From positions 1-41,025 of the IMG/VR virus record IMGVR_UViG_3300021389_000053: a stretch of DNA of 41,025 nt; one strand, written 5' to 3'. Shown piece after piece: positions 3 to 41,025 of this stretch (its first letter is position 1; each line of letters opens with the position of its first letter). A model generated the notes under the pieces. The model had not been told where the DNA came from, did not search any database, and saw only the letters and a program-made list of their open reading frames with translations. Source of the stretch: a virus. Position numbers and translations under genes: made by a program.

Positions 3-215
3 GACACAGTAAATCTTACATTACCTTTATTTACTAGAGTCGATATGGGTGAAGAATGGAAAGATAAATATTATAGTGGAAAATATTTGATAACAGGAAT
101 TAGACATATACTAGCTGGAGATCAGTACACCACAGATTTAGAATTAGTCAAAGACAGTTTCAATGATGTTTTACCATCAGAAAAACCAGTATTGTCAGGA
201 GGCGGCGGTAAATGA
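3..215 (+). CDS. Baseplate hub protein (gp27/gpD-like), C-terminal fragment
   Basis: An open frame enters from the left edge and ends at TGA 213-215, giving the last 70 residues of a protein whose start lies outside the window. The readable part contains SGKYLITGIRHILAG followed by YTTDLELVKDSF and a GGGGK end. This pattern, a beta-strand pair ending in a 'ttelElvkd' strand, is typical of the C-terminus of phage late-control-D/gp27-type hub proteins, which sit under the spike and connect it to the tail tube. Its TGA overlaps the ATG of the gp5 gene (ATGA), so the two are probably translationally coupled. That coupling agrees with a hub-spike pair. The family call rests on a short tail and on position; another hub or tail protein is possible. 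Confidence 0.55.
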   Translation, partial: DTVNLTLPLFTRVDMGEEWKDKYYSGKYLITGIRHILAGDQYTTDLELVKDSFNDVLPSEKPVLSGGGGK

Positions 216-24800: not shown

Positions 24801-25712
24801 TGGCGAGATTGGACTATCGGCGGCGGAAGAATAAAAGAACTCTTTGGTGAGGATCCGATAAGACTTGGCAAAGATTCTATGAATACTTGGATGTTTAATC
24901 GGATAGGCCGTTATATCACAAAAGAGCAACACAGCGGCATCTACACAACAACTCCTGACCCTTACGACCCAGATGGAAACGCACCATATGTAGGTAATTT
25001 TCCTGAGTTGTACGAAAAGTACTACTGGTCGTATCAGACGGGTAGGGATGATGATGAGACTAATGTTCGTTCAAACTGGCGACTGAAAAGCAATTGGAAA
25101 GAGATTGCACAAAATTCTGATCGGTTAAATTCGCCCTCACAAGACTTGAAAACCTTTTTTAGTTGTGGATATGTTGGAGATAAGACTATAGGGCCTGGCA
25201 CAAATATTCCACATAACTATACTCCGCCGCCAGTAGTTGAAGATCCCCCATCGGTTCCAAAGAATGATCATATCTGGGATATTAATTTATGTTTCCTTGC
25301 CGGTACAATGGTTACAATGGAAGACGGATCTAAAAAGTCTATAGAAACAATAGATCTGGGCGAAAGTGTTAAAATTGGCGGAAGAATATTTGCTTGTGGT
25401 AAATTTTTAACTAATGATTTGCACGATTATCATGGTATCAAAGTTTCGGGATCGCATATGGTTTTAGAAAATGGTAATTGGATTCAAGTAAAAGATTCTC
25501 CCGATAGTACCTTTATTTCTGATGAAGTTGTGACTACATATAACTTTGGCACAGAAAATCGAAGACTCGAAATCGAAGGAATTACATTTACAGATTATTT
25601 CGAAATTGACGAAAAATTAAAACTAGAAAAATTAGGTAATAAGTATTTCGAAAATTGGACAGATGATATGATGGAAAGAAATAAAGAAGTGGTAGATATA
25701 ATAAATGAATAA
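21885..25712 (+). CDS. Glycine-rich tail adhesin with C-terminal Hint domain
   Basis: This 1275-residue protein starts with two copies of a short attachment motif (IPNSGPIKMSDI and IPESGPIKFSDFYG) found in marine phage tail fibre proteins. The body is rich in glycine clusters such as GGPGGQPGS, GAGGAAGQHGGRGS, GGGRGGNGQGFTPGG and GAPGAGGQSGAI. They resemble the glycine-rich motifs of T-even gp38-type adhesins, which pack as polyglycine sandwiches and carry receptor loops between them. Residues 1136-1275 form a Hint (hedgehog/intein) domain: Cys1136 opens CFLAGTMVTMEDGSKKSIET, and H1191 lies in the block-B-like KVSGSHMVLENG. The usual intein end (HN followed by Cys/Ser/Thr) and a C-terminal extein are absent, so splicing is not expected; N-S shift and cleavage or ester transfer before Cys1136 is possible. 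Its stop overlaps the next gene. Confidence 0.82.
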   Translation: MAIPNSGPIKMSDIIQYLQKLGGQKRISQYYRNGGNVTDIYDNRNIPESGPIKFSDFYGSGLQSEYNWPIPELCTDDFISFAKGIENWDQVNDSKTEYIGRNDTEASMEIPVYNKEGATITIPALKFEIDTERGNDLKYERILENTSIEATNKGLPTDTFSPGSWNMIIPKKFKRIRIVAVSGGGSGSVQKISLTGLEMENKRTKGTVENGYDGGNSTVLHDNFRVSVRGGHGGNQDAEDHDRSRYDQTTLHPTGLQQSSLAAAGQSFIIGGIPTSYDNKSAETPTEHIAIADHMFGLDVPVFDDGSKSFARNNFPINILYAPPLPHGRRHHNIFSPSNLGQGEDSLFGPGGQPGSEYSSSSTPQTGPVEVLDTSFGAGGAAGQHGGRGSDETGYTVTQAGQSGITGYFGDFEVKGGDILNIRVGAGGSKSKNTYNDYDDILGRETQRISESGYGGDGMVQIIGGHGFAHSSLSHPGWVLEDEDGSIIASSYAASESSEGVTLLQGSTSSQRTITLMGPNNVSNPRIYRLRFSARIGKSGDESVKTRFCHIGKKSVKVQPLKTIVMENPPNQELYDNPDLSPDVEQVSGTYLPRGTDDNEIIDNWFVPQCNISLTVVANTSRYDSSATFTKSPQGAVSQERGGGPDSFVLNKTTPVVEFTMAKQEKYVLEKSGLSSTASTVSNQNRIATYLRSRQEFQLDEKNENDQNYSSVDGINTWETADMAVFHSGAGGFFLGLDGAISEPPISASQIEYDMIGGGRGGNGQGFTPGGDSEDGYIQGYFGSPGGTGGETILSKNGVVIATTGVYTNNTQMAPSNWNSTIYGNGGRSQSFNYRSAGGSPRRMQPLGWTQSTPNAPNGIVKTGTLDVKAGDVLDFVIGQGGAGGFGASWPASRSVGNNDDTENYTAVGAPGAGGQSGAIILQGVTYTESGSHTVTDELQFNQSVLDGQVNPLVFGTTGHPIDGAITWPYPWWRDWTIGGGRIKELFGEDPIRLGKDSMNTWMFNRIGRYITKEQHSGIYTTTPDPYDPDGNAPYVGNFPELYEKYYWSYQTGRDDDETNVRSNWRLKSNWKEIAQNSDRLNSPSQDLKTFFSCGYVGDKTIGPGTNIPHNYTPPPVVEDPPSVPKNDHIWDINLCFLAGTMVTMEDGSKKSIETIDLGESVKIGGRIFACGKFLTNDLHDYHGIKVSGSHMVLENGNWIQVKDSPDSTFISDEVVTTYNFGTENRRLEIEGITFTDYFEIDEKLKLEKLGNKYFENWTDDMMERNKEVVDIINE

Positions 25713-26221: not shown

Positions 26222-26229
26222 TATAAATA
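26222..26229 (+). promoter_or_regulatory. T4-type late promoter TATAAATA before paralogue 1
   Basis: An exact TATAAATA lies 33 bases before the preferred ATG of the first large paralogue, in a 60-base gap. The same box at similar distance precedes the next two paralogues. Confidence 0.75.
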
Positions 26230-26248
26230 AATGAGAACTAAAAATATT

Positions 26249-26252
26249 AGGA
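26249..26252 (+). promoter_or_regulatory. Ribosome binding site AGGA that decides the start of paralogue 1
   Basis: AGGA at this place is the only SD-like element. It leaves 10 bases to the ATG at 26263 but only 4 to the ATG at 26257 and 1 to a TTG at 26254. The 26263 start (MAQRQITN) is therefore preferred, with 26257 as the alternative. Confidence 0.5.
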
Positions 26253-26262
26253 ATTGATGCAA

Positions 26263-28611
26263 ATGGCTCAACGGCAAATAACAAACATGTCTACATTCTC
26301 TAATTATGGAATGAGTAGAATTAGAACTGGATTTACAACTATAGAAGGAACTGCTTCAATAGATGGAAACGAAGTTGTTACCGGCGGTATGATGATGGCA
26401 TTAGCCATTGACATGCAGAATCAGTGGGGAATGTTTAATGGTTCGCCAGACGCTGGTAATGAATTAGTCGATAATCTTGGGGCCCCCATAACTAAACAAT
26501 TTTTTCAAGAAATAGGACTCACTAGTCCAACATCTACCGGAAATTATGCCGGTTCGGCAAACTATAGTCAATCAACACCATCATCGCCGTCTCAACATGT
26601 AATGTTATTCCAGACAACAACAGAAAGTCTTCCCAATAACGGCACAGTTTCTAGGGGATTGGATCAAAATTACAGAATAAGATTTGAATTGGATTTGAGG
26701 CCTCGTCTTTTTTATAATTTTTCGACATCTACCGGCGACAGAGAATTTGCAGATGAATTGTATCAACTAAATTTGAGAATGGATTCTTTGGGATATTATC
26801 ATTACGCCGGCGGCAATCAAATAAACGAACAACTATTTAAACCAAATTCATACTACCCCGATAGCGTATATAGGGCAGATACCTTTATTTTGCCTAATTC
26901 TGGATTTCCAAATACTTCTGGTTGGGAAGATCAAATTGGTATTCCAAATCCTATGTACGGATGGTTCAAAGTTAATGTAGGTTGTTCGAATCAACTATTA
27001 GCTTCTGGTGATATTTCAGAGCCTCAATCAGATTCAAATGGAATAATAACACTAGAAAATGGATCGACAGTCGATACATCTATTACAAGATTTCCAGGCG
27101 AGTGCGTAGACTTGACATTTGAAGATGTTACTGTGTTGTCCGATCCGTCTAATACAGGGCCTTATTATGTTGAAGGAACTATAGTAAGTGATGATCCAAA
27201 TCAACTATTTTACTATCCAGTGTTTTTAGATCAATATGCAGCAAATCAATATGATGGAGCAATCGCAAATACTGCTACTGCTATAAGTATAACAGGGGTG
27301 TCTAATACAAATCCTGTAGTAGTAACAACGAGCGCTCCACATGGATATACACAGGGTCAACCAATATCGTTTTCTAGTATTTCTCCAGCAATAAATCCGC
27401 TAAACGGTAACACTTACTACGCAAAACCAGTTTCGGGAAGTGCGAACGAATTTTCTGTATACATGAATTCAAATTGTACTATACCATTAAACGGAACTTC
27501 TTGGACTACTGCCCAACAATATGTTAGTGGTGGTAACTCTACTTCGGGAGTAGGTACATCTTCTGCAAAAATATTTTCTGAATTTCCATTATTGACAGTA
27601 TATGTTCCCACTACGACACTTGATCCTGCTAATTCTGCATTATGGGGAACTGCTACTGCACCTACTTCGGTATCTGGATTTAAAAAATATATTAACAATC
27701 GGTCTCTTAGATTCAGAAATAAGAAAAAGGGTTCTGGCTGGTTTAAAAGATTTCCAAAAACGGAACCATCATTGCAGGGTACATATCCATTTTCATATAG
27801 ACTGACAATGACAGAAAGAGGAATATTTCTATACATTCACGACGATGCTTCTTCGGACCAAGCAGACGATTATGCATGGATTGCAGTTCAAAGAACTGTA
27901 AATAATGAAACTGGAATACCAAGAGTTGATGAAGGTTCTAAGTTTCCAGTACATACCATGTATTCTTGTTCGAGAGATTCAATGTATTCTAGGGATGCGG
28001 GTGTTTATTTTTCTCAAGATGCGGCAAATTTACAGAACGCAGAAACGGTGGTCAACACAGTATATGATGAAAGAGGTAATACATACAACTTATCAAATTT
28101 AGACAACAGCAAAACATTTTATATTCTCAGTCCATACGATAGAGAAGATTATCTTGCAGATGAATATACCGCAAAAAATATTTGGAGATTTGTCGCAAGA
28201 GAATTTGATATTTTAAAGCCCACAGATGTTCATAAATTTGCCACTCGACATCAAGTTGACAGCAACGCAGTCATCAATCCACTTGAACAATTATCTATCA
28301 CGGATGAAAATAGATTTGTCATCACATTTCCCACTGGATTGACAACTCAAAGATTTATGTATCCAAAAGAAGAAATGGATTTAATTTGTTTTTCATCTGC
28401 CGAGGTGGTTGCAGAATCAAGTAATATTCCAATGACAACTTACAAGTATGATGGAACAAATATAGATAAACGCAGATATCAAGGTATGAGATCGACAGCT
28501 GCATTTGGTAATGGTATGAGAATTATGGCATTAGTGAATGGTCAAAATATCCATAATAGCGATGTAATATTAGATGTAAATGATGCGATAGGGATTGAAT
28601 ACACACCTTAA
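26263..28611 (+). CDS. Large virion-type protein of unknown function, paralogue 1 of 3
   Basis: I do not recognise a named family. The protein has 782 residues from the preferred start (784 from the ATG at 26257). It is the shortest and most divergent of three adjacent paralogues. It shares with the other two a middle block near residues 505-560 (GTYPFSYRLTMTERG, DDYAWIAVQR, FPVHTMYS). It also shares a late block from about 640 to the end: FVAREFDILKP, NAVINPLEQLSIT, FPTGLTTQRFMYP and GNGMRIMALVNG. The N-terminal part contains an ITGVSNTNPVVVTTSAPHGY stretch like those in phage fibre proteins. No signal peptide, membrane span or enzyme motif is visible. The perfect late promoter and place after fibre genes argue for a virion component, probably tail-associated. 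Two PGD-like features of other paralogues (DLCLHPY, the FREPGE block) are missing here. Confidence 0.75.
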   Translation: MAQRQITNMSTFSNYGMSRIRTGFTTIEGTASIDGNEVVTGGMMMALAIDMQNQWGMFNGSPDAGNELVDNLGAPITKQFFQEIGLTSPTSTGNYAGSANYSQSTPSSPSQHVMLFQTTTESLPNNGTVSRGLDQNYRIRFELDLRPRLFYNFSTSTGDREFADELYQLNLRMDSLGYYHYAGGNQINEQLFKPNSYYPDSVYRADTFILPNSGFPNTSGWEDQIGIPNPMYGWFKVNVGCSNQLLASGDISEPQSDSNGIITLENGSTVDTSITRFPGECVDLTFEDVTVLSDPSNTGPYYVEGTIVSDDPNQLFYYPVFLDQYAANQYDGAIANTATAISITGVSNTNPVVVTTSAPHGYTQGQPISFSSISPAINPLNGNTYYAKPVSGSANEFSVYMNSNCTIPLNGTSWTTAQQYVSGGNSTSGVGTSSAKIFSEFPLLTVYVPTTTLDPANSALWGTATAPTSVSGFKKYINNRSLRFRNKKKGSGWFKRFPKTEPSLQGTYPFSYRLTMTERGIFLYIHDDASSDQADDYAWIAVQRTVNNETGIPRVDEGSKFPVHTMYSCSRDSMYSRDAGVYFSQDAANLQNAETVVNTVYDERGNTYNLSNLDNSKTFYILSPYDREDYLADEYTAKNIWRFVAREFDILKPTDVHKFATRHQVDSNAVINPLEQLSITDENRFVITFPTGLTTQRFMYPKEEMDLICFSSAEVVAESSNIPMTTYKYDGTNIDKRRYQGMRSTAAFGNGMRIMALVNGQNIHNSDVILDVNDAIGIEYTP

Positions 28612-28641
28612 TCACAAAACTAAAATCAACAAAATATTTTT

Positions 28642-28649
28642 TATAAATA
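28642..28649 (+). promoter_or_regulatory. T4-type late promoter TATAAATA before paralogue 2
   Basis: An exact TATAAATA lies 30 bases before the next ATG, in a 67-base gap without a visible terminator hairpin. The strong ribosome site AGGAGA (28668-28673) follows, 5 bases from the ATG. Confidence 0.78.
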
Positions 28650-28678
28650 TAAGTAAAAAAACTAGATAGGAGACCTTA

Positions 28679-31600
28679 ATGTCTATTGCAAGCGGATTTA
28701 GCATTCAAAGAAATGACGTTATACAAGTGCCACATAGGCAACAATACGAAGTTCATAATGCCATAGCAGGAATTTCTGTTTATGTCTTGAGATCATTACC
28801 AGATTATAAAGACAAATCTTGGGATTGGGATATTCGCATGGGTGAAGTTAGAATTCATCTGGAAAGAGGATCGGAGGCATTAGGAGTAAATGTTAATAAC
28901 ACTACTTCAACTGGTGTCGGACCAAGTGGTGTTATTCCAACAGAAGATGAAGCCTTTGCAGAAAATTTATACACAGAAGGTTCCTTGATTGCCGGTCGTG
29001 GTTCGGTTGAATATGATTCTAAATATGGAGAATTTGGTGCTATTGTATTTGATACACAGTCAGCGCCCATGTCAGGTGAAAAAATAGAAATTTCGTATAT
29101 AGAAGATGTATCTAAGTTTAAAGGCGATGGCGGATTAATGTTTCAACTTGCACATGATCTCTGTCTACATCCATATAATAGCGCTGAAATTTTTAAATCT
29201 CATTTCGGAAACCAAAAAATAATTACTTTGGGACTAGACGGAACTACTGGAAATGAATTTCAAGAGGATATTCCTTTATCAACTGTAGCCGGAGGCAACA
29301 ATAATAACATTCTGGATGTAGCCAAGGGTGGTTCTGGTGTTGTTGATACAGTTAAAATATATAAAAATCCATTGTCAATAAGATATAATGACTCTTTTAC
29401 TGGTGAGGGTCTTGAAGCTTCACAAAGAACTGTAAAATATTTGTGGAAAGTTGTAAAAGAACATAGAGAAAGCAATCTAGCACTAGATATGAGTGGCAGT
29501 ACGGCCGGAATATCTTTTTCTGAAATAACTACAACTGACAGAACTACATATGTCACATTAATGAATGATTTTCCATTAGTGGAATCTGATCTAGGTGCGG
29601 GAGAATTTAGAGTTTCTATAAACAATCAATTATTATTAAGTGATGATTGGACCGTTACTTCAGATGATGTTAATAGAAAGGCTACTTTCAAACTGAAAAG
29701 AACCGAAGCTATGACATGGGTTGCTGACCTAGCGAATGTTAATGTAAATATTTCTTATATATGGAAAAAGTCTATAGATGTTCCTTTTGGTGCATTGGTA
29801 GGTAGAGGTGGTCTGGGACCAAATCAAGTTACTGCCGATTCGGGCGCTGGTAGCGCATCACACATTGCATTCCCACACGATGATAATATTATTGATGATA
29901 CCGAAGCGGCCCCAAATAAATATTGGGCATTTAGTAGAGCGTTTCGTGGTATTAGTGCCTCCGCGATGGATCCAGCAAATCCACAAAATGCATATTTCGG
30001 TTGGCATGCTCCAGTAGCAAATGGCGACCCGCACATTGTCACATCGCAGGCAGATGCGACCAATGCTTTTGTCGGATTGGCCAATGTTTCAGTTATTCCC
30101 GCCACAAGTGTTAGACATAAAAATACTGCAAAAATTAAGGATGGCGATTTATTTAGTTTGTCTATGATGGAAAATGAAGAATACGCAAATCCGTTTAAAT
30201 TGATTTTCCCAGCTCCACTCTCTTCTACCAATGAGATTGACATAAAAAATAAACTCAGGACAATAACCGATAAATTTTTGTTAGAGTCAGATAAAGGTGT
30301 CGATTTACTATCGGATAGCAATCTTAGTTTTACTAATAGTTATCATCCCGCAAGTAATAGAAAACCACAAAAATGGCGTTTGAGATTTCAATGGGATCCT
30401 TCAACACTGTCTGTAAAAGTTAATGTTGGGACAGAATATCAATTGAGAGATGATTGTAGCATTTCTGCTATGGATGTACGAGATGGAATAAAATCTCCAA
30501 TATTTAGAGAACCCGGCGAATTATGCGATGTTTATAAAACTCCAGCTGTTGGCCGTGGAGCTAACTTATCAATCTCTCGAGCAAAATCTCAATGGTTTAA
30601 AAAACGTCAGATAGAACAAAGTATGGCAAGTACATATCCAATGACATATAAAATTACATGTACTGATCATGGTATGGCTCTTTTTGTATTCGATCAATCT
30701 TCAGTAGACCAAGATGATGATTATGCTTGGTTTGTCATACAGAGACATGTTAATCAATCTACAGGAGAACCCGAATTCTCAGACAAATCGCCAGTTCATT
30801 GTGTTTATTCGCCTTCAAAGAGACCTGTTGATGTTTCATCTTTGACACCATATTTTGCAACAAAAGATACAGAAGATTTATCAAAACCAGATGCTATCTA
30901 TAGTTCTTTGGGAAATTTGTATAAGACCGAAGCACCGACAATTTATGTTAATAGAGATGCAACTTTTTTCGATGGAATCGTTAATGCTATTGATTTTAAC
31001 GGATATGGATATGCTTCAACTACTGCGCGTGGACAGGTAACTCCCACAACATTATCATCTTCTGATATAAAAACAGATTTATTCAGAGGAATAACTGGAA
31101 ATCAGGGTTCTGCTAGTACAAATCTTTGGTCGGAAAAAGTATGGAATTTCCGAATCGCAGTAGATGCCAATGGCAACTTACCGGAATATGTCGTAGGTCA
31201 TTATGTTAAAATGGAAATCAACACCGATGGTGATGCCGCTACTATAGAAGATTGGGGTGGTAGAATTAAATTCTGGGATCCGATCGGTGGGTTGTTGACA
31301 ATTGTTTCCACAAATGATTTACATCTAACTGGTGCCGGCGAAAAATATGACTCAGTGACAGTGCCGCCAGGCGCTGAGAATATTCTTGAGGCTGGGGGTA
31401 AAGAATTGGTAATGGGATTGTCTATGTCAGGTGATGTCACTGTTGATTTCACCCCACATGCAGGAACCACATCCCCTTACACATCAATAACAGATGTGAC
31501 TAGAGAAGCAAAAGGTATGTTGTCAACTATTCCTGTTGTAGAAAAATCTGGGCCAAAATCAGCAGTTACAGATTTAGCGATAACAGGTTTTAATTCATTA

Positions 31601-33199
31601 CCTAGACGCAGAGATACTTCTATTGCATTAGACGCTTCGCCATCGCCAGGATCTGTCACTCAAGTAGCAGGGCCGCCAGCATTCATCAGAGTACCAACTA
31701 GTGCTGGTGCAAACTTGCTGGCAAACACCGCGCCAGCTGCGAGTTGGTCGGTTGGCAGTTCGGCTTCAACGATGTCTCAAAATATTGTTTGGCCATCAAA
31801 TCTGTTAGAAAGAATGTCTACATTTAAAAATTCTTCTGCATCAGGGACCGGAATTGGAAGTGCCGCCGAAAATGTAAATATGAGTAGTTTCAAGAGTGGC
31901 GACTCTGCTCTATTAGATATTTTATATACTTCACAACCAGATAATGTAGAAAAAGTATTTGAATCTATGGTGGTATCCCTTGATGATATAGAAATTAAAA
32001 GAGATACAAAGGCGTATGTTCTTACATATGATGAATGGGTATTACGAGGCGACCCATCTACTGTTCCAAGATTTTTAGAATCTATGGATGCGGCCGGAGT
32101 TACAACTCTTGGTGCAGATTTTAAAATTCCTGCCACTGGCACCACAACTGGTGATTTGCCAAACTTTAATCAATTAATTCCTGGCATGGATCCGACAGCA
32201 ACAGGCGCTGGTGTAAACAAAATCACATTTAATACAAACAATGCTTCTACTGGTAGAAAGTTTTTTAATAATTGGCAGAATTGGTTTGAGAAGGGCGTAA
32301 TTCCTACCGGATGGGTTTCAGGCGATGATTATCCAGAATGGACTTTTGCAACTTCTCATTTGGTAAAATCTCAAGATATTGATAGTCTCAAAGATAAATT
32401 GCCCGGCGATGTGATATGGACTAATACTATTGTTCGTAATGAATATATGTATGATTTCTGGAATAAGTCTCTTTTCTTTAAAATTTCTCCAAGAGCAGGC
32501 ACAACATTTTCTATTTCTATGATAAATTACCAAACTGCAAATCCTTCGCAGGGTACTTATATTATTTCTAAACCAGAAGATAGAAATTTTCCAGAAACAA
32601 ATTTAAATGAAGTTAAATCAATAAACCGATTTGTTGTGAGAGAAAAAGATGTTTTGAAACCTTGGGATTATCATGTTTCTGCAACAATGCACGAAATAGA
32701 CTCTCATGCTATAATCAACCCACAAGAACAACTTTCAATTACTCAAGGAAGAAATTTTGTATTTTCTTTCCCAACACAATTAACATCTCAGAGATTCTAC
32801 TATCCAGAAATGGAATTGGATTTGATTTGTGTATCTTCTGCTGACTTTAGTACTCAAGCCGGTTATGTGGAAATAGACAAATATACTGATTCGGATGGTA
32901 AAAATACAGATGCTAGTACGGCAGCACAAGAAGCAATGAAAAGTGCGTTTACTGATTCGACTTCAAGTGGTTCATTAGGAAATAGATTTAGTGTTAGTGA
33001 AATAGCAGCTGGTGCATATGGTGGACATACCGGGCCCGATGATAAAGTTTACATATGGAAAAAACATAAAAGAAAATATGAAGGAATGCCATCTACCCTA
33101 CCTAATGGTAATGGTATGAGAATCTTTTTGCAAGTCACTGGTGGGGCAATCCGACACAGTGACGTCGAAGAAGGCACAGCACCGCCCATGACTAGATAA
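28679..33199 (+). CDS. Large virion-type protein of unknown function, paralogue 2 of 3
   Basis: This 1506-residue protein is not a family I can name. It starts SIASGFSIQRNDVIQVPHRQ, closely matching the start of paralogue 3 (GGFSIQRNEMISIPQQ). Other shared blocks are DLCLHPY (about residue 160), the DGIKSPIFREPGEL segment (about 600), TYPMTYKITCTDHG (about 650), DDDYAWFVIQRHVN (about 678) and PVHCVYSPSKRP. Near the end come RFVVREKDVLKPWDYHVSA, IDSHAIINPQEQLSIT, FPTQLTSQRFYYP and GNGMRIFLQVTGGAIRHSDV. A roughly 600-residue segment between the middle and late blocks is unlike paralogue 3. No catalytic motif or membrane segment is seen. Own late promoter and excellent SD predict high late expression, which fits a structural or adhesin role. 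Confidence 0.78.
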   Translation: MSIASGFSIQRNDVIQVPHRQQYEVHNAIAGISVYVLRSLPDYKDKSWDWDIRMGEVRIHLERGSEALGVNVNNTTSTGVGPSGVIPTEDEAFAENLYTEGSLIAGRGSVEYDSKYGEFGAIVFDTQSAPMSGEKIEISYIEDVSKFKGDGGLMFQLAHDLCLHPYNSAEIFKSHFGNQKIITLGLDGTTGNEFQEDIPLSTVAGGNNNNILDVAKGGSGVVDTVKIYKNPLSIRYNDSFTGEGLEASQRTVKYLWKVVKEHRESNLALDMSGSTAGISFSEITTTDRTTYVTLMNDFPLVESDLGAGEFRVSINNQLLLSDDWTVTSDDVNRKATFKLKRTEAMTWVADLANVNVNISYIWKKSIDVPFGALVGRGGLGPNQVTADSGAGSASHIAFPHDDNIIDDTEAAPNKYWAFSRAFRGISASAMDPANPQNAYFGWHAPVANGDPHIVTSQADATNAFVGLANVSVIPATSVRHKNTAKIKDGDLFSLSMMENEEYANPFKLIFPAPLSSTNEIDIKNKLRTITDKFLLESDKGVDLLSDSNLSFTNSYHPASNRKPQKWRLRFQWDPSTLSVKVNVGTEYQLRDDCSISAMDVRDGIKSPIFREPGELCDVYKTPAVGRGANLSISRAKSQWFKKRQIEQSMASTYPMTYKITCTDHGMALFVFDQSSVDQDDDYAWFVIQRHVNQSTGEPEFSDKSPVHCVYSPSKRPVDVSSLTPYFATKDTEDLSKPDAIYSSLGNLYKTEAPTIYVNRDATFFDGIVNAIDFNGYGYASTTARGQVTPTTLSSSDIKTDLFRGITGNQGSASTNLWSEKVWNFRIAVDANGNLPEYVVGHYVKMEINTDGDAATIEDWGGRIKFWDPIGGLLTIVSTNDLHLTGAGEKYDSVTVPPGAENILEAGGKELVMGLSMSGDVTVDFTPHAGTTSPYTSITDVTREAKGMLSTIPVVEKSGPKSAVTDLAITGFNSLPRRRDTSIALDASPSPGSVTQVAGPPAFIRVPTSAGANLLANTAPAASWSVGSSASTMSQNIVWPSNLLERMSTFKNSSASGTGIGSAAENVNMSSFKSGDSALLDILYTSQPDNVEKVFESMVVSLDDIEIKRDTKAYVLTYDEWVLRGDPSTVPRFLESMDAAGVTTLGADFKIPATGTTTGDLPNFNQLIPGMDPTATGAGVNKITFNTNNASTGRKFFNNWQNWFEKGVIPTGWVSGDDYPEWTFATSHLVKSQDIDSLKDKLPGDVIWTNTIVRNEYMYDFWNKSLFFKISPRAGTTFSISMINYQTANPSQGTYIISKPEDRNFPETNLNEVKSINRFVVREKDVLKPWDYHVSATMHEIDSHAIINPQEQLSITQGRNFVFSFPTQLTSQRFYYPEMELDLICVSSADFSTQAGYVEIDKYTDSDGKNTDASTAAQEAMKSAFTDSTSSGSLGNRFSVSEIAAGAYGGHTGPDDKVYIWKKHKRKYEGMPSTLPNGNGMRIFLQVTGGAIRHSDVEEGTAPPMTR

Positions 33200-33215
33200 T
33201 AATCAAAGTATTTTT

Positions 33216-33223
33216 TATAAATA
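33216..33223 (+). promoter_or_regulatory. T4-type late promoter TATAAATA before paralogue 3
   Basis: An exact TATAAATA preceded by a T-run lies 27 bases before the ATG of paralogue 3. The 50-base leader, with the box and an AAGGAGA ribosome site (33238-33244), closely resembles the leader of paralogue 2, as expected if promoter and gene were duplicated together. Confidence 0.78.
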
Positions 33224-33249
33224 GAAATAAAACATTTAAGGAGACATAA

Positions 33250-36200
33250 ATGCCAACTTCATTAGAAACGAAGTATCTTTCGGGCGGTTTCTCTATCCAG
33301 AGAAACGAAATGATATCTATTCCACAGCAGAAATTTCATCAAAGATTTCAATTTACTAATAAATTTAATCAAACATTTGTACGTCTGGACAAACCAGCAC
33401 AAGGGTTGGGCCAAGATGAAACAAAACAAATTGATAGAATTCCGCCATATGAAGTACGTTCAGAAGAAAGAAAAGTAGTTTCCGGAACTATGACAACAAT
33501 TAAAAAACCATTGGCGTATATGTTTTCTCCAATTGATTTGACTAGTAAAGCTGAACTTAGTGTAGAGACTGTAGATGTAACTGGAAAAATTACAAGTATT
33601 AGTATTGCGAACGGCGGTGTTGGTTATTCTCCTTCTACCATATTCAATGTTTGTATTAGAGGTGGCGCGCCCGGCGGATCGGGTTCGGTAAATGATTTGA
33701 AACCTGCCGAAGTTCTAGCATATTCAGATGGTAACGGAAGAATATCCACAATCGACATTGTTGATGGTGGTGTGGGTTATGAAATGTCACCTTCAGGATT
33801 TCCTGCTATCTCAGCAGAACTAGATGAAACTCCTGTCGAGGGTAATTTTATTGTAACAAGATTTAATGGACCACTACAATCAACCGGAGTCGGAGCGGTA
33901 ACTTCCGCTAATATAAATGGTGCTGGAACTGTTTTGACAGGACATAGGCCTGGCGTTTGGTTCATAAAACATAATACAAACCAACCTTTGACAACTTCTG
34001 GATCGGGCGATCTGGCAGGGTTTTCGGGACAATTATACGTCAATAATCAGTCCATTGTTACTAAATTTGTTTTAATGTCATATGGTGAAGGATTCGCAGT
34101 AGATGATACAATTACCATACCACAGTCTCAGATCGGTGGACTTGCTGCTGATACCACATCGAATCAAGTTGTTTTAAGAGTTACGAATGTTGCATCACAA
34201 GCACAAGTGGAAGCAGATCATGGTTCTGCTATTTGGAGATCTGAAAGCTTTGATTTAAACATGGATGTTATATTAGAATACAATATAGACACTAGTATAG
34301 ATCTTAATACTCCTAATGGATTATTAAGAAATTTAGCATCTGACTTGTGTTTGCATCCATATGCAAATTATTATACTTCTTCATTTTCTACATTAGAACA
34401 GGGTAGTGCAGAATTAACTTTTTCTGGTAGTGGACTTACTGATTTGACAGCTGGCGCCAGTATGGACAATATTATTGCTACTCTAACAGATCCATTGACA
34501 AATTTGGCACTTGATGGAGATACCGGATTTCAAATTGAAGATGTAGGGAAAAGAATTATAGAACCATTTGGTAGTGGAACAATGGTAATCACGGATGTTG
34601 GTAATGATGATGGCGCCGGTGCAGCAGCTGATTCTACAAGAGATCATAATAGTCATCCAGCTGGTTGTGCCGTTTGTTCATTGACTCCCAATACAGGATC
34701 GGCCGATGAAAGAACGACAGAAGAAGTAAATACTTTCTCAATTCCTACTCAACTTACATATAAACCAAAATATTGGCGTTTAGCTATCAAGAAAGATAAA
34801 TGGACGGTAGGATTTAATTCTGGTGCGGCTGTTAATAATTCGAATCACGAAGGAATGAAACTCAATGAAGGTGGGTTTGAATCACAACCTTACAATCTAA
34901 TATATCCACATATAAAAGCAGAAGAAAAACTTCATGTTCCTGTTACTACTCTTGGACAACAAAATCATAGAGATGTTATGAGTTGTATTCGTAGAATTGG
35001 AGATTTATTTGTCGTAGAATCTGAAAAGGCAACAGATTTACTGTCCTCAACAGATGATATTACTCCTGCTACAACTTCTGTGCCGACAACTGTACATTTG
35101 ACACCGCCCGTCAGAGATCAACGCAAACCACAGAAATGGCGAATGAGATTTTATTACGATTCGCGGGACGAATACATATATGTTAATGTTGCAACTCCTT
35201 TGCAAATATTAGACGATGGGAATTTGACATCAGGGCAGGGACGCGATGGTATTAAACAGGCCATATTTAGACAACCCGGCGAACTAAGTGAAGTTTATTT
35301 TAATTTTTCGTCAGAAACTAATAAAGCAAAAAGTGGGTTTTTCAGAAGACAAGGTAAAACAGAGACAGGGATCGAAGGGTCGTATCCTATGGCATATAGA
35401 TTAACTTGTACCGATCATGGTACTGGATTTTTCTGTTTTGATCAAGCTTCTGTCGATCAGGATGATGATTATGCTTGGTTCGTTGTACAGAGACATGTTA
35501 ATAATGTTTCTGGCACTATTGAATCGGAAGATGGAAAAACACCTGTTCATTGTTTATATGCTCCATCTAAGAGACCAGATGAAACCAGTAACTACAATAC
35601 TGGATTTTTTGCTTCTGTTAGTAGTGATACGGATCCTGCCACTGGCGAAACGGTAATGACATCAAAAAGTTTAGATGAAATGGAGATTTATGACGTCAAT
35701 GGTAGAAAATTGAGGCCAGGAATACCCTTAGATACATCTATTATTACACATTCTGGTCCGGTTCAGGTTAGAGCAGATGCATATCAAAGTGGACAAAATT
35801 ATTTACAAAAAGGTACTACTGGATATCCACTTACAGATTCCGCAGCACTTGGTTCTGGCGGTTCTCTATCTGGTTTTACTACTGTAAATGATTTCTTTCA
35901 ATTCCCAGATGTCACCTCAACGAATTATCCAGAAAATGTTGGATGGGCAAACCACACATCCGCGACCGCATCTCCATCTGTTACGGGTAGAGATGGGTGG
36001 GCCTTACAATATCCTTCCCAAGTCACTGATACTAATTTTGTTCCTGTAGGAGATTTTGTTACGGCCGATACTGTAACAAACAGATATTTAAGTACAACTA
36101 AAGGTACGGGTGATACATCAGTATGGGGTGCTTTGGGCAATGCCGGCAACGGACTTATAAATTATGTTATGGCATGGAATCAAATGCAAGGTCCCTCAAA

Positions 36201-38037
36201 ACTTGGCGTGACACCATCAAGAGTGAGACATAGAAGTTCGACCGGAGTTGATACTTTCTTAGATGCAAATAAAGACTTCTCATTTATCAATAGAGCAGAA
36301 GAACCTGCTAGAACGAATCCAGATGGAAAACCAAGAGAATTACCTCTTTCTTCTGCTGTTGCAATTTTTAATCCAAAAACCACTGAAGCAAAAAGACTTG
36401 CAGATTCAAGAGCTCATGTTATTATTTATTATACTTCTATCACATACACACCTTCAGGCAGCGATTATATTATTAGATCCAAGCAAGATCCACTGACCGT
36501 TGGCGTTGCACTCAGCGGCAACAACCCCCTTACATTGGCCGAAAATATCGCGCAGATGTTGGACGTTGCCGCCACCGTTGGTGGACCATATTCTTTCCAA
36601 GAATCAGAATTGCAACCGGTCAGCGGTCGCGGTATTCATGGTGGTGTGACACAGGGATTGGTAGTCGAAAAAGCTCTAGTTAGTGAGAATTCGAACGACG
36701 AAGGATCGCTTTTATGTCGTATAGGTAACATTTTAGACAAAGAAACCGTATTGCCACAAGTTGGAGACGAAATTTGTTTTGCTAAAGAGAATGGTAAAAG
36801 TGGCGTCAAAGTCGGCGGAAGAGTTTCTGCCGTCATACAAACATTTCCAAAAGATGACACTATGATATACGAATATTCGTGGAAAGGTGCTGGATATAAT
36901 AATGAATATGCGAATTTCTATGGTAGAAGTGGTGTCAACTCTCACCCATTATTTGAAGTAAATAGACTTAAAGTTTTTGTTAATGGAGTTGAAGCTGATT
37001 CTGCTATTTTGGGACAAAATTATAATATTGATAATGATGGTGATATTCAGTTTGGAACTACAACTTCTAGTTTAGAATATTTTGGAGTGCCTAAATCCAT
37101 GTATGCATATAATGTGTCTGATGATACATTAAAATTTGCGTTACCAATACAAGATAATACTATTGTAAAACTGAGTTATGAAAATTATTCGGATACTGAA
37201 GAGAGGGATACTGGAAAAGGTACTTATTTGATTAAAATTCCCGAAGACAGAGATGTTCCTAATATTTGGCAAGATATACATTCTGTCTCCAAAGGTATTT
37301 ACAGGTTTTGTGTGCGCGAAAGTGATGTATTTAAACCGTGGGATTATCATGTTTCTGCTGTCGTTCCACAAATTGACAGTCCAGCGTGTATCAACCCTGT
37401 TGAACAATTGTCAATTACACAAGATAAAACTATAATATTTAATTTTCCGACTCCTTTGGCATCCCAGAGATTTATCTATAGTAATGCTGAATTAGATATT
37501 ATTTGTGTCGCAAATGCTGGTAGTTCGACTCAGGGTGGTATCATTAAAACATCAGAATCTAAATACGATTTGGATCATATGCAACACAGCGGATATAGAA
37601 ACTATACTAATGATAAGACATATCCACCTACATTAGATTCATCAACTGCCAGTACAACTCTTGCTTCAACTCAGTTTGGAGAGGATGCAAATGGGTTGAC
37701 TACCGATGCAAATGTAAGTAAGTCGGCCGGACTCAATCCAGCTGGTGAACCACTCTCATTAAACTATAGAAGAGAATACTACTGGCATAATGTATATCAA
37801 GGCGGATTGACTTTGGCAACTGGTCAAAGAACAGGGGCAACAGCTAGTCCGGTTGTTAGAGCATTTGATACTGCCGAAAATTCTACCACAAGAACTTATT
37901 TGGGTATGCATTCGACAAAACCATATGGTAATGGTATGAGAATATTTATTCAATGTCGGGGTGGTTCTATAAGGCCTCAATATTCTGATTTCACCCCAAG
38001 AGATCAAGTTGCTGTAGAAACTAATACATTTACATAA
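33250..38037 (+). CDS. Large virion-type protein of unknown function, paralogue 3 of 3
   Basis: This 1595-residue protein, the largest of the three, is of no family I can name. It has the paralogue start GGFSIQRNEMISIPQQ, then two G-x-GY beta repeats (ISIANGGVGYSPSTIFNV and IDIVDGGVGYEMSP, residues about 115-180) like those in the gp7-like protein. DLCLHPYANYY (about 365), DGIKQAIFRQPGEL, SYPMAYRLTCTDHG (about 711), DDDYAWFVVQRHVN (about 737) and PVHCLYAPSKRP follow. The end has YRFCVRESDVFKPWDYHVSA, SPACINPVEQLSIT, FPTPLASQRFIY and GNGMRIFIQCRGGSIRP. The extra length compared with paralogue 1 is N-terminal and between the shared blocks. A terminator follows the stop, so it closes the three-gene block. 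Virion localisation is inferred from promoter and context. Confidence 0.78.
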   Translation: MPTSLETKYLSGGFSIQRNEMISIPQQKFHQRFQFTNKFNQTFVRLDKPAQGLGQDETKQIDRIPPYEVRSEERKVVSGTMTTIKKPLAYMFSPIDLTSKAELSVETVDVTGKITSISIANGGVGYSPSTIFNVCIRGGAPGGSGSVNDLKPAEVLAYSDGNGRISTIDIVDGGVGYEMSPSGFPAISAELDETPVEGNFIVTRFNGPLQSTGVGAVTSANINGAGTVLTGHRPGVWFIKHNTNQPLTTSGSGDLAGFSGQLYVNNQSIVTKFVLMSYGEGFAVDDTITIPQSQIGGLAADTTSNQVVLRVTNVASQAQVEADHGSAIWRSESFDLNMDVILEYNIDTSIDLNTPNGLLRNLASDLCLHPYANYYTSSFSTLEQGSAELTFSGSGLTDLTAGASMDNIIATLTDPLTNLALDGDTGFQIEDVGKRIIEPFGSGTMVITDVGNDDGAGAAADSTRDHNSHPAGCAVCSLTPNTGSADERTTEEVNTFSIPTQLTYKPKYWRLAIKKDKWTVGFNSGAAVNNSNHEGMKLNEGGFESQPYNLIYPHIKAEEKLHVPVTTLGQQNHRDVMSCIRRIGDLFVVESEKATDLLSSTDDITPATTSVPTTVHLTPPVRDQRKPQKWRMRFYYDSRDEYIYVNVATPLQILDDGNLTSGQGRDGIKQAIFRQPGELSEVYFNFSSETNKAKSGFFRRQGKTETGIEGSYPMAYRLTCTDHGTGFFCFDQASVDQDDDYAWFVVQRHVNNVSGTIESEDGKTPVHCLYAPSKRPDETSNYNTGFFASVSSDTDPATGETVMTSKSLDEMEIYDVNGRKLRPGIPLDTSIITHSGPVQVRADAYQSGQNYLQKGTTGYPLTDSAALGSGGSLSGFTTVNDFFQFPDVTSTNYPENVGWANHTSATASPSVTGRDGWALQYPSQVTDTNFVPVGDFVTADTVTNRYLSTTKGTGDTSVWGALGNAGNGLINYVMAWNQMQGPSKLGVTPSRVRHRSSTGVDTFLDANKDFSFINRAEEPARTNPDGKPRELPLSSAVAIFNPKTTEAKRLADSRAHVIIYYTSITYTPSGSDYIIRSKQDPLTVGVALSGNNPLTLAENIAQMLDVAATVGGPYSFQESELQPVSGRGIHGGVTQGLVVEKALVSENSNDEGSLLCRIGNILDKETVLPQVGDEICFAKENGKSGVKVGGRVSAVIQTFPKDDTMIYEYSWKGAGYNNEYANFYGRSGVNSHPLFEVNRLKVFVNGVEADSAILGQNYNIDNDGDIQFGTTTSSLEYFGVPKSMYAYNVSDDTLKFALPIQDNTIVKLSYENYSDTEERDTGKGTYLIKIPEDRDVPNIWQDIHSVSKGIYRFCVRESDVFKPWDYHVSAVVPQIDSPACINPVEQLSITQDKTIIFNFPTPLASQRFIYSNAELDIICVANAGSSTQGGIIKTSESKYDLDHMQHSGYRNYTNDKTYPPTLDSSTASTTLASTQFGEDANGLTTDANVSKSAGLNPAGEPLSLNYRREYYWHNVYQGGLTLATGQRTGATASPVVRAFDTAENSTTRTYLGMHSTKPYGNGMRIFIQCRGGSIRPQYSDFTPRDQVAVETNTFT

Positions 38038-38108: not shown

Positions 38109-41025
38109 ATGACAGATATTGCTAATATATTTTTATTCAATGACTTAAAAAAAGTTAGGATTGGAATCGAAAGACCTTCCAATTACATAGCTGTTCCAAC
38201 TACAGATCCAGAAAATAGAGATTTTAGTCTTTCTATCAATGACAATCTATATGAATTTAGATATCCTTATGGTTGGAACATTCCACAGGATACCGTTTTT
38301 ACCGAAGGAAACATCGAATATACTTTTCAAACACAAGGTTTGAGACTTTTCGGATATTTTCAAGATCATTGGAAAATTAAAGTAAAATCTAATCTTATTA
38401 TGGTGTCTGATCTCCCATTCGCTATGGCTACAATAACATTTAATGGCGGAGATATTGAAAAAAATGGTATATCTGTCGGAAATTCTACAACAGTCGTTAA
38501 TGGAGATACGATTAGAATTTCAGTATCAGATTATATTCCTAATACAAATCAACCAAATATTTTTGACATAGATATATCGGGAATTATTGTCCGATGGATA
38601 GTAGAACTTTCCGATCCGCATTTCATGGGATTTGATTCTGAAGTTAGTAGGCCAGGATCTAGTGATAATCAAGAAGTGTCTTATAGGGCTCAGACAAATG
38701 TTATAAACTCTATAAAATTTCTTATCGTTAATGTGGTGGAAAAAAACGAATCTATTAGTCACGACATTGAACAAATAAAAGAAATTGTAACCGCAACAAT
38801 TAGAGAAAATATCTCAGAGATATTAACACATACCATAACTGAATTTGGTATAGAAGAAACGGCAGACATATTTACTTTAAATGAAATTTTAAAAGAAAAC
38901 ATATATGATACCGAAACTCTCATACAAGAAGTGATCGAACCGGCAGAATCTATAACAACAAACGAAATAGATCCAGTTTCAGAAATAGAAACCTTGTCAT
39001 TGTCAGATATCGATCCAGTATCAGAAACAGAAGTTTCTGCCGAATCAGATATTGGTACAGAAACCGAAACTGAAGTTTCTGCCGAATCAGATATTGGCAC
39101 GGAAACAGAAACAGAAGTGTCGGCTGTATCTGATGTAGGTACAGAAACCGAAACTGAAGTTTCTTCTGAATCTGATGTGGGTACGGAAACTGAAACAGAA
39201 GTTTCTTCTGAATCTGATGTGGGTACGGAAACTGAAACAGAAGTGTCGGCAGTGGCCGATGTAGGCACAGAAACCGAAACTGAAGTTTCTTCTGAATCTG
39301 ATGTGGGTACGGAAACTGAAACAGAAGTGTCGGCTTTATCTGATATAGGCACAGAAACCGAAACAGAAGTGTCGGCAGTGGCCGATGTAGATACAGAAAC
39401 AGAAATAGAAGTTTCTGCCGAATCAGATATTGGTACAGAAACAGAAACAGAAGTTTCTGCCGAATCAGATATAGGTACAGAAACCGAAATCGAAATATCT
39501 GCTGTATCTGATATAGGCACAGAAACCGAAACAGAAGTGCCGGCAGTGGCCGATGTAGGCACAGATTCGGAAACTGAAATATCCGATGAATCTGATGTGG
39601 GTACGGAAACCGAAACCGAAATATCTGCTGTATCTGATATAGGCACAGAAACCGAAACAGAAGTGTCGGCTGTATCTGATGTAGGTACAGAAACCGAAAC
39701 TGAAATATCCAATGAATCTGATATAGGTACGGAAACTGAAACTGAAAATATTACTACTTCAGACGTTGATAGTATCGAGGAAAAAATAACTGAATTTTTG
39801 GCGACTGTCGATAGCGTATCCGAAAAAATAACTACAGATCTTTTGGCAACCGTTCTAGAACAAGTATCGGAAGATATAACTCTTTCTGATACGGAATCGC
39901 TCAGCGAATCAGAAATAGTAAATTTATTAGAATCAGAATTTGATAATATTTTAGAAAATGAAAATTTATCAGACATAGATCAAGAAATAATAAATGAAAC
40001 ATTTTCTCTTTTAACACAAGAAGCACTAAGCGAAGTAATACGAAATAGTTTTTTAGATAGACCTATAGCTGATATATTAGACACAACAACCACATCTGAT
40101 AGAGATAGTGAAAATATTATAGAAACGGTAGATCTTTCTGAACAAGAACAAGATATTGCTAAAGAAATTACGACATCTGTAGATACACCAGATTTAGATG
40201 AATCTATCGAAACTATATTAGAAGAAACCAAAGAAGATGCAGGAACAACATCCTCTGATAGTTCCGAAGTTTCTTTAGATTCTGATACAAAGTCAGGCAC
40301 AGATTCTAGTGAAACAATAGATTCATCTGTTGCAAGTTCTGACAATACTGATACATCTGAAGATGGCACCGTTACATCATCTGATAATTCTGATACATCC
40401 GAAGATGGTAATGTTTTATCGGCTGACAATTCTGAGGTAGTTGTAGAAAGATCTATACTTTTAGATTCACCTACAGATGAGACTCCAGAAGTTGCTGCGT
40501 TTTTAGATTCACCTACAGATGAGACTCCAGAAGTTTCTGTACTTTTGAGTTCTCCAACTGATGAGACTCCAGAAGTTTCTGCGTTTTTAGATTCACCTAC
40601 AGATGAGACTCCAGAAGTTTCTGCATTTTTAAATTCGCCTACAGACGAGACTCCAGAAGTTGCAGCCCAAATAAATTCACCTACAGATGAGACTCCAGAA
40701 GTTGCAACCCAAATAAATTCGCCTACAGACGAGACTCCAGAAGTTGCAACCCAAATAAATTCACCTACAGATGAGACTCCAGAAGTTGCAACCCAAATAA
40801 ATTCGCCTACAGACGATACACCAACTGTAGCAGGAACACTTGATCCGCCAACAGATGAGATTTCAGAAGTTGCAGGAACATTTGATCCGCCAGCTGACGA
40901 TACACCAACTGTATCGGGAACACTCGATCCGCCAACTGACGATACACCAACTGTAGCAGGGTCAGTAGACGCGCCCACGGACGATACACCAACTGTAGCA
41001 GGGTCAGTAGACGCACCCACGGACG
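38109..41025 (+). CDS. Acidic repeat-rich fibre-like protein, N-terminal part (open at right edge)
   Basis: From ATG 38109 the frame stays open to the window edge, at least 972 residues, with no stop. Residues 1-205 are a mixed beta-rich part (MTDIANIFLFNDLKKVRIGI, RYPYGWNIPQDTVFTEGNIE, IIVRWIVELSDPHFMGFDSE) that I cannot assign. A predicted helical part follows (about 205-290). Residues 308-545 are 17 exact-length 14-residue repeats of consensus EVSAESDIGTETET without any Lys or Arg. Residues 546-785 form a Ser/Asp/Glu-rich spacer with helical parts. From residue 786 a second array of 14-residue repeats, consensus DSPTDETPEVAAFL, continues off the edge. The SD is weak (AAGAG, 5 bases before the ATG). 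It follows a terminator and thus starts a new unit. Strong acidity and tandem repeats suggest an extended fibre stalk or surface adhesin; that is inference. Confidence 0.72.
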   Translation, partial: MTDIANIFLFNDLKKVRIGIERPSNYIAVPTTDPENRDFSLSINDNLYEFRYPYGWNIPQDTVFTEGNIEYTFQTQGLRLFGYFQDHWKIKVKSNLIMVSDLPFAMATITFNGGDIEKNGISVGNSTTVVNGDTIRISVSDYIPNTNQPNIFDIDISGIIVRWIVELSDPHFMGFDSEVSRPGSSDNQEVSYRAQTNVINSIKFLIVNVVEKNESISHDIEQIKEIVTATIRENISEILTHTITEFGIEETADIFTLNEILKENIYDTETLIQEVIEPAESITTNEIDPVSEIETLSLSDIDPVSETEVSAESDIGTETETEVSAESDIGTETETEVSAVSDVGTETETEVSSESDVGTETETEVSSESDVGTETETEVSAVADVGTETETEVSSESDVGTETETEVSALSDIGTETETEVSAVADVDTETEIEVSAESDIGTETETEVSAESDIGTETEIEISAVSDIGTETETEVPAVADVGTDSETEISDESDVGTETETEISAVSDIGTETETEVSAVSDVGTETETEISNESDIGTETETENITTSDVDSIEEKITEFLATVDSVSEKITTDLLATVLEQVSEDITLSDTESLSESEIVNLLESEFDNILENENLSDIDQEIINETFSLLTQEALSEVIRNSFLDRPIADILDTTTTSDRDSENIIETVDLSEQEQDIAKEITTSVDTPDLDESIETILEETKEDAGTTSSDSSEVSLDSDTKSGTDSSETIDSSVASSDNTDTSEDGTVTSSDNSDTSEDGNVLSADNSEVVVERSILLDSPTDETPEVAAFLDSPTDETPEVSVLLSSPTDETPEVSAFLDSPTDETPEVSAFLNSPTDETPEVAAQINSPTDETPEVATQINSPTDETPEVATQINSPTDETPEVATQINSPTDDTPTVAGTLDPPTDEISEVAGTFDPPADDTPTVSGTLDPPTDDTPTVAGSVDAPTDDTPTVAGSVDAPTD
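39030..39743 (+). repeat. Tandem array of 17 x 42 bp coding repeats (array 1)
   Basis: Seventeen 42-base units follow each other with no insertion or deletion (714 bases). Each begins GAA and encodes 14 residues of consensus EVSAESDIGTETET, with residue 5 usually E or V and residue 2 V or I. Units starting at 39156, 39198 and 39282 are identical at DNA level, which shows recent duplication or gene conversion, while others differ at several synonymous sites. No unit contains a basic residue. Confidence 0.95.
40464..41025 (+). repeat. Tandem array of 13+ x 42 bp coding repeats (array 2), running off the edge
   Basis: Thirteen full units (40464-41009) and a partial one encode 14 residues each, consensus DSPTDETPEVAAFL, changing along the array to NSPTDETPEVATQI and then DPPTDDTPTVAGTL and DAPTDDTPTVAGSV. 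Units at 40674 and 40758 are identical and alternate with a TCG/GAC variant (40716, 40800), hinting at an 84-base duplication step. The array's end lies outside the window. Confidence 0.95.

Follow-up and report, generated by a model that had tools for sequence, protein, structure and literature searches.

What could a T4-like virus gain from three consecutive genes for proteins of 782, 1506 and 1595 amino acids (aa)? The question is raised by the genes P1, P2 and P3 (Table 1) of the window, as we call the whole stretch of DNA analysed here, 41,025 bases of linear sequence taken from a virus record. Their lengths and reading frames had been given correctly in the first-pass annotation, and an alternative in-frame ATG at 26257 would make P1 784 aa long instead of 782. 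The left part of the window bears a T4-type baseplate cluster, the products of which include a gp5-like hub with lytic domains, wedge proteins of the gp25, gp6 and gp8 types, and others. P1, P2 and P3 come after these gp5/25/6/8-type baseplate genes, one after another and in the same direction, and adjoin baseplate and tail-fibre genes. Among isolates, those with the nearest gp6-like proteins (approximately 35% identity) are phages of Methylophilales, Pelagibacter and cyanobacteria, and the virus is thus without a known close isolate; judging from the same phages, it is probably marine.

Several other genes of the window were noted. The gp5-type hub (212-2524, plus strand) seemingly contains two different lytic segments, an endolysin-like one at about aa 171-320 and, as judged by eye only, a second at about aa 410-510. 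At 21885-25712 (plus strand), a glycine-rich tail protein of 1275 aa is encoded, the C-terminus of which gave a weak match to the Hint (intein-like) profile PF05203 (E 0.004, under the cut-off). Beyond P3, an open frame of at least 972 aa (38109-41025, plus strand), interrupted by the window end, consists of a non-repetitive N-terminal part followed by long acidic 42-base tandem repeats (TETEVSAESDVG and SPTDETPEVA units), and the big minus-strand ORFs at 38759-41020 are apparent shadows of these repeats. Relatives of this acidic repeat protein, of 1141-1877 aa, occur after P3 in other contigs.

The relationship between the three proteins was apparent in BLASTP comparisons of P1 with P2 (E 3e-31), P1 with P3 (9e-23) and P2 with P3 (8e-54, with 40% identity between P3 526-789 and P2 484-728), and a profile built solely from compact relatives of the family matched all of them (E 1e-52 to 1e-64). 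As judged from these alignments, P1, P2 and P3 are true paralogues, their homology being far above chance; the six blocks previously proposed to be shared are present in each protein in the same order, and are indeed homologous. Three consecutive members in the same order were found in about 30 other IMG/VR contigs, several of which are near-copies. In a tree of the core, constructed without a formal topology test, P1, P2 and P3 form three clades, each with the same spread of contigs, which indicates that the duplications predate the clade. The earlier count of three paralogues holds for the window and fails in two longer relatives, where a fourth family gene is located approximately 12-15 kb downstream of P3. 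The N-terminus of this fourth paralogue is near the compact form (VSINRNN ... DDLLANG), and in one of the two contigs (L292) a relative of the acidic repeat protein encoded at 38109 lies between it and P3. Since the fourth gene is found downstream in these longer contigs, the number three may reflect the end of the window, which precedes the position expected for such a gene.

A separate problem is the expression of these genes, each of which was previously assigned its own late promoter. The T4-type element TATAAATA precedes all three genes, its first base lying 41 nt (P1), 37 nt (P2) and 34 nt (P3) ahead of the ATG. Its five copies in the window compare with 6.2 expected by chance, therefore the number of copies alone is no evidence, and only position and conservation are informative. 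All four plus-strand copies in the window precede a gene by 34-41 nt, and P2 retains the element upstream in 13/13 distinct cassettes and P3 in 10/13, compared with 0.7% of windows at large. Because of this positioning and conservation, the copies preceding P2 and P3 are well supported as putative conserved late-type promoter elements. Before P1 the element is kept in two of 12 cassettes, those of the closest relatives only, and thus the proposal stands for P2 and P3, whereas for P1 it is limited to the window and these relatives.

The alignments describe the giants as a compact core interrupted by insertions of up to about 600 residues, the sites of which coincide in P2 and P3. Insert A, of approximately 490-530 residues in all, separates the N-terminal strand (GFSIQRN) from the KPQKWR block, insert B (593 residues in P2 and 563 in P3) follows the PVHC(V/L)Y motif, and insert C (56 and 119 residues, respectively) precedes the final GNGMRI block. 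Core blocks are nearly gap-free, with 43-99% identity between orthologues, and the conserved part is spread across the whole chain, both ends included. The inserts vary in length, with differences reaching hundreds of residues, their identity falling to about 18-35% in distant orthologues, and the variable segment of P1 (aa 350-482) is mostly absent from the latter. The inserts evolve several-fold faster than the core (dN/dS mostly 0.1-0.4 versus 0.02-0.14, dS being near saturation for the more distant pairs), and such values indicate that they are real, selected, fast-changing protein. Profile, orthologue alignment and dN/dS thus agree with the idea of a common scaffold with variable insertions, as suggested in the first-pass annotation. 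The 'long unrelated segments' described there between the shared blocks do exist, but they are insertions at identical positions in P2 and P3. Within insertion A of P3, aa 97-180 bear a weak likeness to a segment of the gp8-type PHROG 438. Larger still are the proteins of two other contigs, in both of which P3 has about 2000 aa (above 2000): in one of them (L054), P1 has 3398 aa and a further family fragment lies upstream, and in the other (L058), P1 is an open frame of at least 2160 aa.

Table 1. Coordinates of P1, P2 and P3, of their parts and upstream elements in the window, and of the fourth paralogue in two longer contigs (L292 and L293).
Feature	Position	Strand	Evidence
Putative late promoter element TATAAATA, T4-type, before P1	26222..26229	+	exact match
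P1, 782 aa, PHROG 12249 core with moderate insertions	26263..28611	+	PHROG 12249 E 1.6e-48
P1 variable segment (aa 350-482)	27310..27708	+	60-95% gaps in distant orthologues
P1 C-terminal core (aa 483-763)	27709..28551	+	compact-relative profile E 1.2e-58; dN/dS 0.02-0.09
Putative late promoter element TATAAATA before P2	28642..28649	+	exact match
P2, 1506 aa	28679..33199	+	PHROG 12249 E 1e-42; profile E 7.5e-65, three pieces
P2 insertion A (aa 13-505)	28715..30193	+	profile and motif mapping; orthologue lengths vary
Conserved putative helix motif inside P2 insertion A (~aa 153-166)	29135-29176	+	helix assignment inferred
P2 core block 1 (aa 506-712)	30194..30814	+	profile positions 29-212
P2 insertion B (aa 713-1305)	30815..32593	+	dN/dS 0.16-0.30 versus 0.04-0.12 in adjoining core
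P2 core block 2 (aa 1306-1405)	32594..32893	+	profile positions 217-324; orthologue identity 72-97%
P2 insertion C (aa 1406-1461)	32894..33061	+	profile and orthologue alignment
P2 last core block with GNGMRI (aa 1462-1491)	33062..33151	+	profile
Putative late promoter element TATAAATA before P3	33216..33223	+	exact match
P3, 1595 aa	33250..38037	+	PHROG 12249 E 5.7e-32; profile E 9.8e-53, three pieces
P3 insertion A (aa 20-547)	33307..34890	+	profile, orthologue and motif mapping
Conserved putative helix motif inside P3 insertion A (~aa 358-371)	34321-34362	+	helix assignment inferred
P3 core block 1 (aa 548-780)	34891..35589	+	profile; P3 526-789 versus P2 484-728
P3 insertion B (aa 781-1343), site as in P2	35590..37278	+	profile and orthologues
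P3 core block 2 (aa 1344-1423)	37279..37518	+	profile
P3 insertion C (aa 1424-1542), site as in P2	37519..37875	+	profile and orthologues
P3 last core block with GNGMRI (aa 1543-1574)	37876..37971	+	profile
Fourth paralogue, contig L292	13354-17301	+	TATAAATA upstream
Fourth paralogue, contig L293	3049-8976	-	TATAAATA upstream

Contrary to the initial impression that the family could not be assigned, P1, P2 and P3 all match PHROG 12249, labelled 'tail sheath' in the database. The accompanying view that it is not a T4 component was corroborated, as no T4-like isolate was present among the phage matches of tblastn. Pfam contains no domain matching P1 or P3 and gave only a sub-threshold match in P2, and a sequence search of the PDB with two family profiles returned no matches. 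The relatives detected by tblastn are encoded by jumbo phages (Erwinia Alexandra and Yoloswag types, Dickeya, Pseudomonas Lu11 and HRDY3, and NCTB). Their proteins are compact, of about 320-430 aa, and present in one to five copies, mostly in tandem: there are two in Alexandra (gp153/154), Lu11 (gp246/247) and HRDY3, five in NCTB (BN7874_241-244 and 246), and one in PaBG (gp261) and several other genomes. In Lu11, HRDY3 and PaBG, the family is located near tail-fibre genes. Six tandem members of 296-654 aa were also noted on bacterial-genome contigs of two Pseudoalteromonas genomes (L289 and L290), where they probably belong to a prophage or a phage-plasmid; a further record, L146, is apparently the same element as L289.

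PaBG provides a link to the virion. Gene product 261 of this phage, of 34,778.16 Da and annotated as 'Unknown', is a Coomassie-visible protein of the published virion proteome (PMC7412058). The family copy PaBG_00261 has a mass, computed from Met5, of 34,777.7 Da, matching the published value; the computed masses of products 257 and 263 also match the published ones, and therefore the PaBG numbering agrees with that of the publication. The suggestion that P1-P3 are virion proteins is supported through this relative.

The most informative comparison was that of predicted structures. When PaBG gp261 was modelled by AlphaFold2 with 57 relatives, a model of high confidence was obtained (pLDDT 90.8, pTM 0.91), in which two strands are joined, at the site of insert B, by a turn of about six residues. 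Foldseek found no significant match to this model in the PDB (best E 0.074). A second look with VIA-align, confined to the top 1000 of Foldseek and the only source of the match, aligned residues 4 to 323 of the model with chain K of 8rk3, the baseplate of the small Pseudomonas phage JBD30 (Z 15.8, rmsd 3.7, 252 residues; next best Z 4.6). P1 of the window, folded separately, yielded a weak model (pLDDT 55, pTM 0.56), and this low-confidence model was aligned over residues 17-759 with chain G of the same structure (Z 14.2, 250 residues; next 3.0). As the best Z for models with no clear match is 7-8, both values stand clear of the baseline. The two chains correspond, by length and residue numbering, to gp47 (K, 318 aa) and gp48 (G, 307 aa). 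It is strongly supported by both models that the shared core would adopt the gp47/gp48 fold, predicted over the whole chain. A Foldseek search of BFVD gave matches to siphophage proteins, one of which has the length of gp18 of Sphingomonas phage MMDA13, itself encoded in a JBD30-like cassette. A direct sequence link to gp47/gp48 was considered and dropped: HMMER gave no match between the family and these proteins, and hhalign only a non-significant one (E 0.08 over 31 N-terminal columns). The genes for gp47 and gp48 are adjacent and both products match PHROG 687, whereas P1-P3 match PHROG 12249 instead.

It was shown previously that gp47 and gp48 pair into heterodimers, three of which make up each of the three bent lateral arms that embrace type IV pili (PMC11445458), and gp47/gp48-type arms have already been extended to Mesyanzhinovviridae in the work on phage Lydia (PMC11946847). 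Our literature search revealed no paper tying such arms to jumbo or T4-like phages, though one may exist elsewhere. On the basis of the predicted fold, we consider it reasonably probable that P1-P3 are subunits of lateral baseplate fibres ('arms') as in JBD30. Globular, beta-rich subunits, the products of at least two tandem paralogous genes, would make up such an arm as a short chain, and not as a long trimeric spike. The compact core of each subunit would provide the contacts between subunits and with the baseplate, so that the cores stack, and the large, fast-evolving inserts, placed in the same loops, would face outwards and contact the host or host filaments in a variable manner. It is by analogy with JBD30 that we infer the assembly of the arm, its position at the baseplate, the function of the inserts, and a target such as pili or other filaments. 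Alternating heterodimers cannot be general, however, since single-copy genomes such as that of PaBG exist. A more specific version is put forward tentatively, as a possibility which we would not yet call probable: a heteropolymer of three or four giant components might form, in T4-like viruses, a bead-chain lateral fibre of the kind known in small siphophages that bind pili, and display long, fast-changing loops. If so, one conserved scaffold could offer several binding surfaces, perhaps to pili or other host filaments. The locus was previously proposed to encode an expanded receptor-binding or virion-decoration set; presence in the virion is supported via PaBG gp261, and receptor binding by P1-P3 is likely, given the fold match to gp47/gp48.

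A fold does not fix a function, and proteins sharing it might be placed elsewhere, at the periphery of the baseplate or as a decoration of the virion surface (a ring, a collar or a sleeve of the tail), forming no arms and binding no receptor. Such a role would be compatible with the existence of single-copy genomes and with PaBG gp261 being visible in the virion without an assigned location. We regard it as rather unlikely, as every solved protein of this fold that our comparisons brought up is a subunit of a baseplate arm, the genes adjoin baseplate and tail-fibre genes in the window and lie near the latter in three jumbo phages, and rapid diversification of loop inserts would be unusual in a component with a purely internal structural role. 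A reading as ordinary trimeric fibres or spikes that bind the receptor and contain insertion domains appears improbable, even though the genes follow fibre genes and the products are large and variable. In trimeric fibres it is usually the N-terminal anchor that is conserved and the C-terminus that varies, whereas the conserved part of P1-P3 spans the entire chain, and the fold match is to a subunit of a heterodimeric arm.

The classification of gp47 with nitrilase-like hydrolases, noted by the authors of the JBD30 study (PMC11445458), would make virion-borne enzymes another option; this is very improbable in view of the lack of Pfam matches for gp47, gp48 or the family members tested, and of any catalytic set recognisable in the alignments, which were judged by eye only. 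Hardly any credence can be given to tail sheath proteins, a reading which rests on the label of PHROG 12249 and on the RefSeq names of Alexandra gp153/154 and Lu11 gp246/247, and which we reject. The Pfam sheath profile PF04984 has no match in P1-P3, but separate PF04984 frames of 527-628 aa were present in all eight jumbo or reference records tested (over the cut-off in seven), and two of the triplet contigs have separate sheath genes of their own. Furthermore, the sheath proteins of PaBG are gp76 and gp213, not gp261 (PMC7412058), the catalogued sheath of a Yoloswag-type phage has 563 aa against 323-396 aa of the family members there, and the true NCTB sheath gave no match to the family profile. 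Sheath chains were also absent from the VIA-align second look at the top 1000 of Foldseek, which proves nothing. Because genomes with the family carry separate sheath genes, the 'tail sheath' label, also propagated in RefSeq names, is very probably mistaken.

If P1-P3 are interpreted as arm subunits, approximately 12 kb of a virus genome, and a family which databases call 'tail sheath', would acquire an identity that can be tested. Such an interpretation would link both the jumbo myophages and the T4-like viruses to an arm for pilus binding hitherto described in siphophages, and the predicted fold, together with the fast-changing inserts, suggests a host-attachment device so far undescribed in T4-like viruses. 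A scaffold tolerating insertions of several hundred residues at fixed loops would be a natural layout for changing host attachment.

Among known systems, the jumbo-phage proteins of PHROG 12249 share with P1-P3 the core sequence family, the frequent tandem arrangement and the vicinity of tail or fibre genes. They differ in being compact, without large insertions, and in usually having one or two copies, whereas the window members belong to a T4-like virus, not a jumbo phage, and reach 782-1595 aa through insertions at fixed sites, outside the usual range of about 320-430 aa. Another candidate is suggested by the BFVD entries A7KUT2, A7KUT3 and A7KUT4, which match the fold of the compact model and may, as we assume, belong to Bacillus phage 0305phi8-36, the bearer of three curly baseplate fibres. 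Curly (corkscrew) baseplate fibres occur in 0305phi8-36 and in Bacillus phage BpSp, and the point of likeness is that high-copy virion proteins were proposed to form lateral baseplate fibres (PMC2147016, PMC4870245); BpSp gp133, the curly-fibre candidate, had no significant match to the family profile, and we treat this connection as a lead only.

With JBD30 gp47/gp48 the likeness comprises the predicted near-whole-chain fold, tandem genes of the same fold (three here plus one in longer relatives, and two to six in most relatives) and association with the baseplate. The JBD30-type family (PHROG 687), also represented by Lydia gp67/68 and in M6, FoX4 and MMDA13, is one of siphophages, with two genes for proteins of about 260-545 aa in the order tape measure-gp47-gp48-distal tail, whereas the genes of the window follow baseplate genes of the gp5/25/6/8 types. 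The gp47-like member is enlarged to approximately 509-544 aa in Lydia, QH16 and Summit (L283, L285 and L286), and insertions in this fold may therefore occur in siphophages too. Since both sequence membership and gene order differ, we do not file P1-P3 in the gp47/gp48 family, although by analogy they most likely work as gp47/gp48 do. Arm proteins of the gp47/gp48 fold and PHROG 12249 are thus known; new are giant, insertion-bearing members, forming sets of three or four components, in T4-like viruses.
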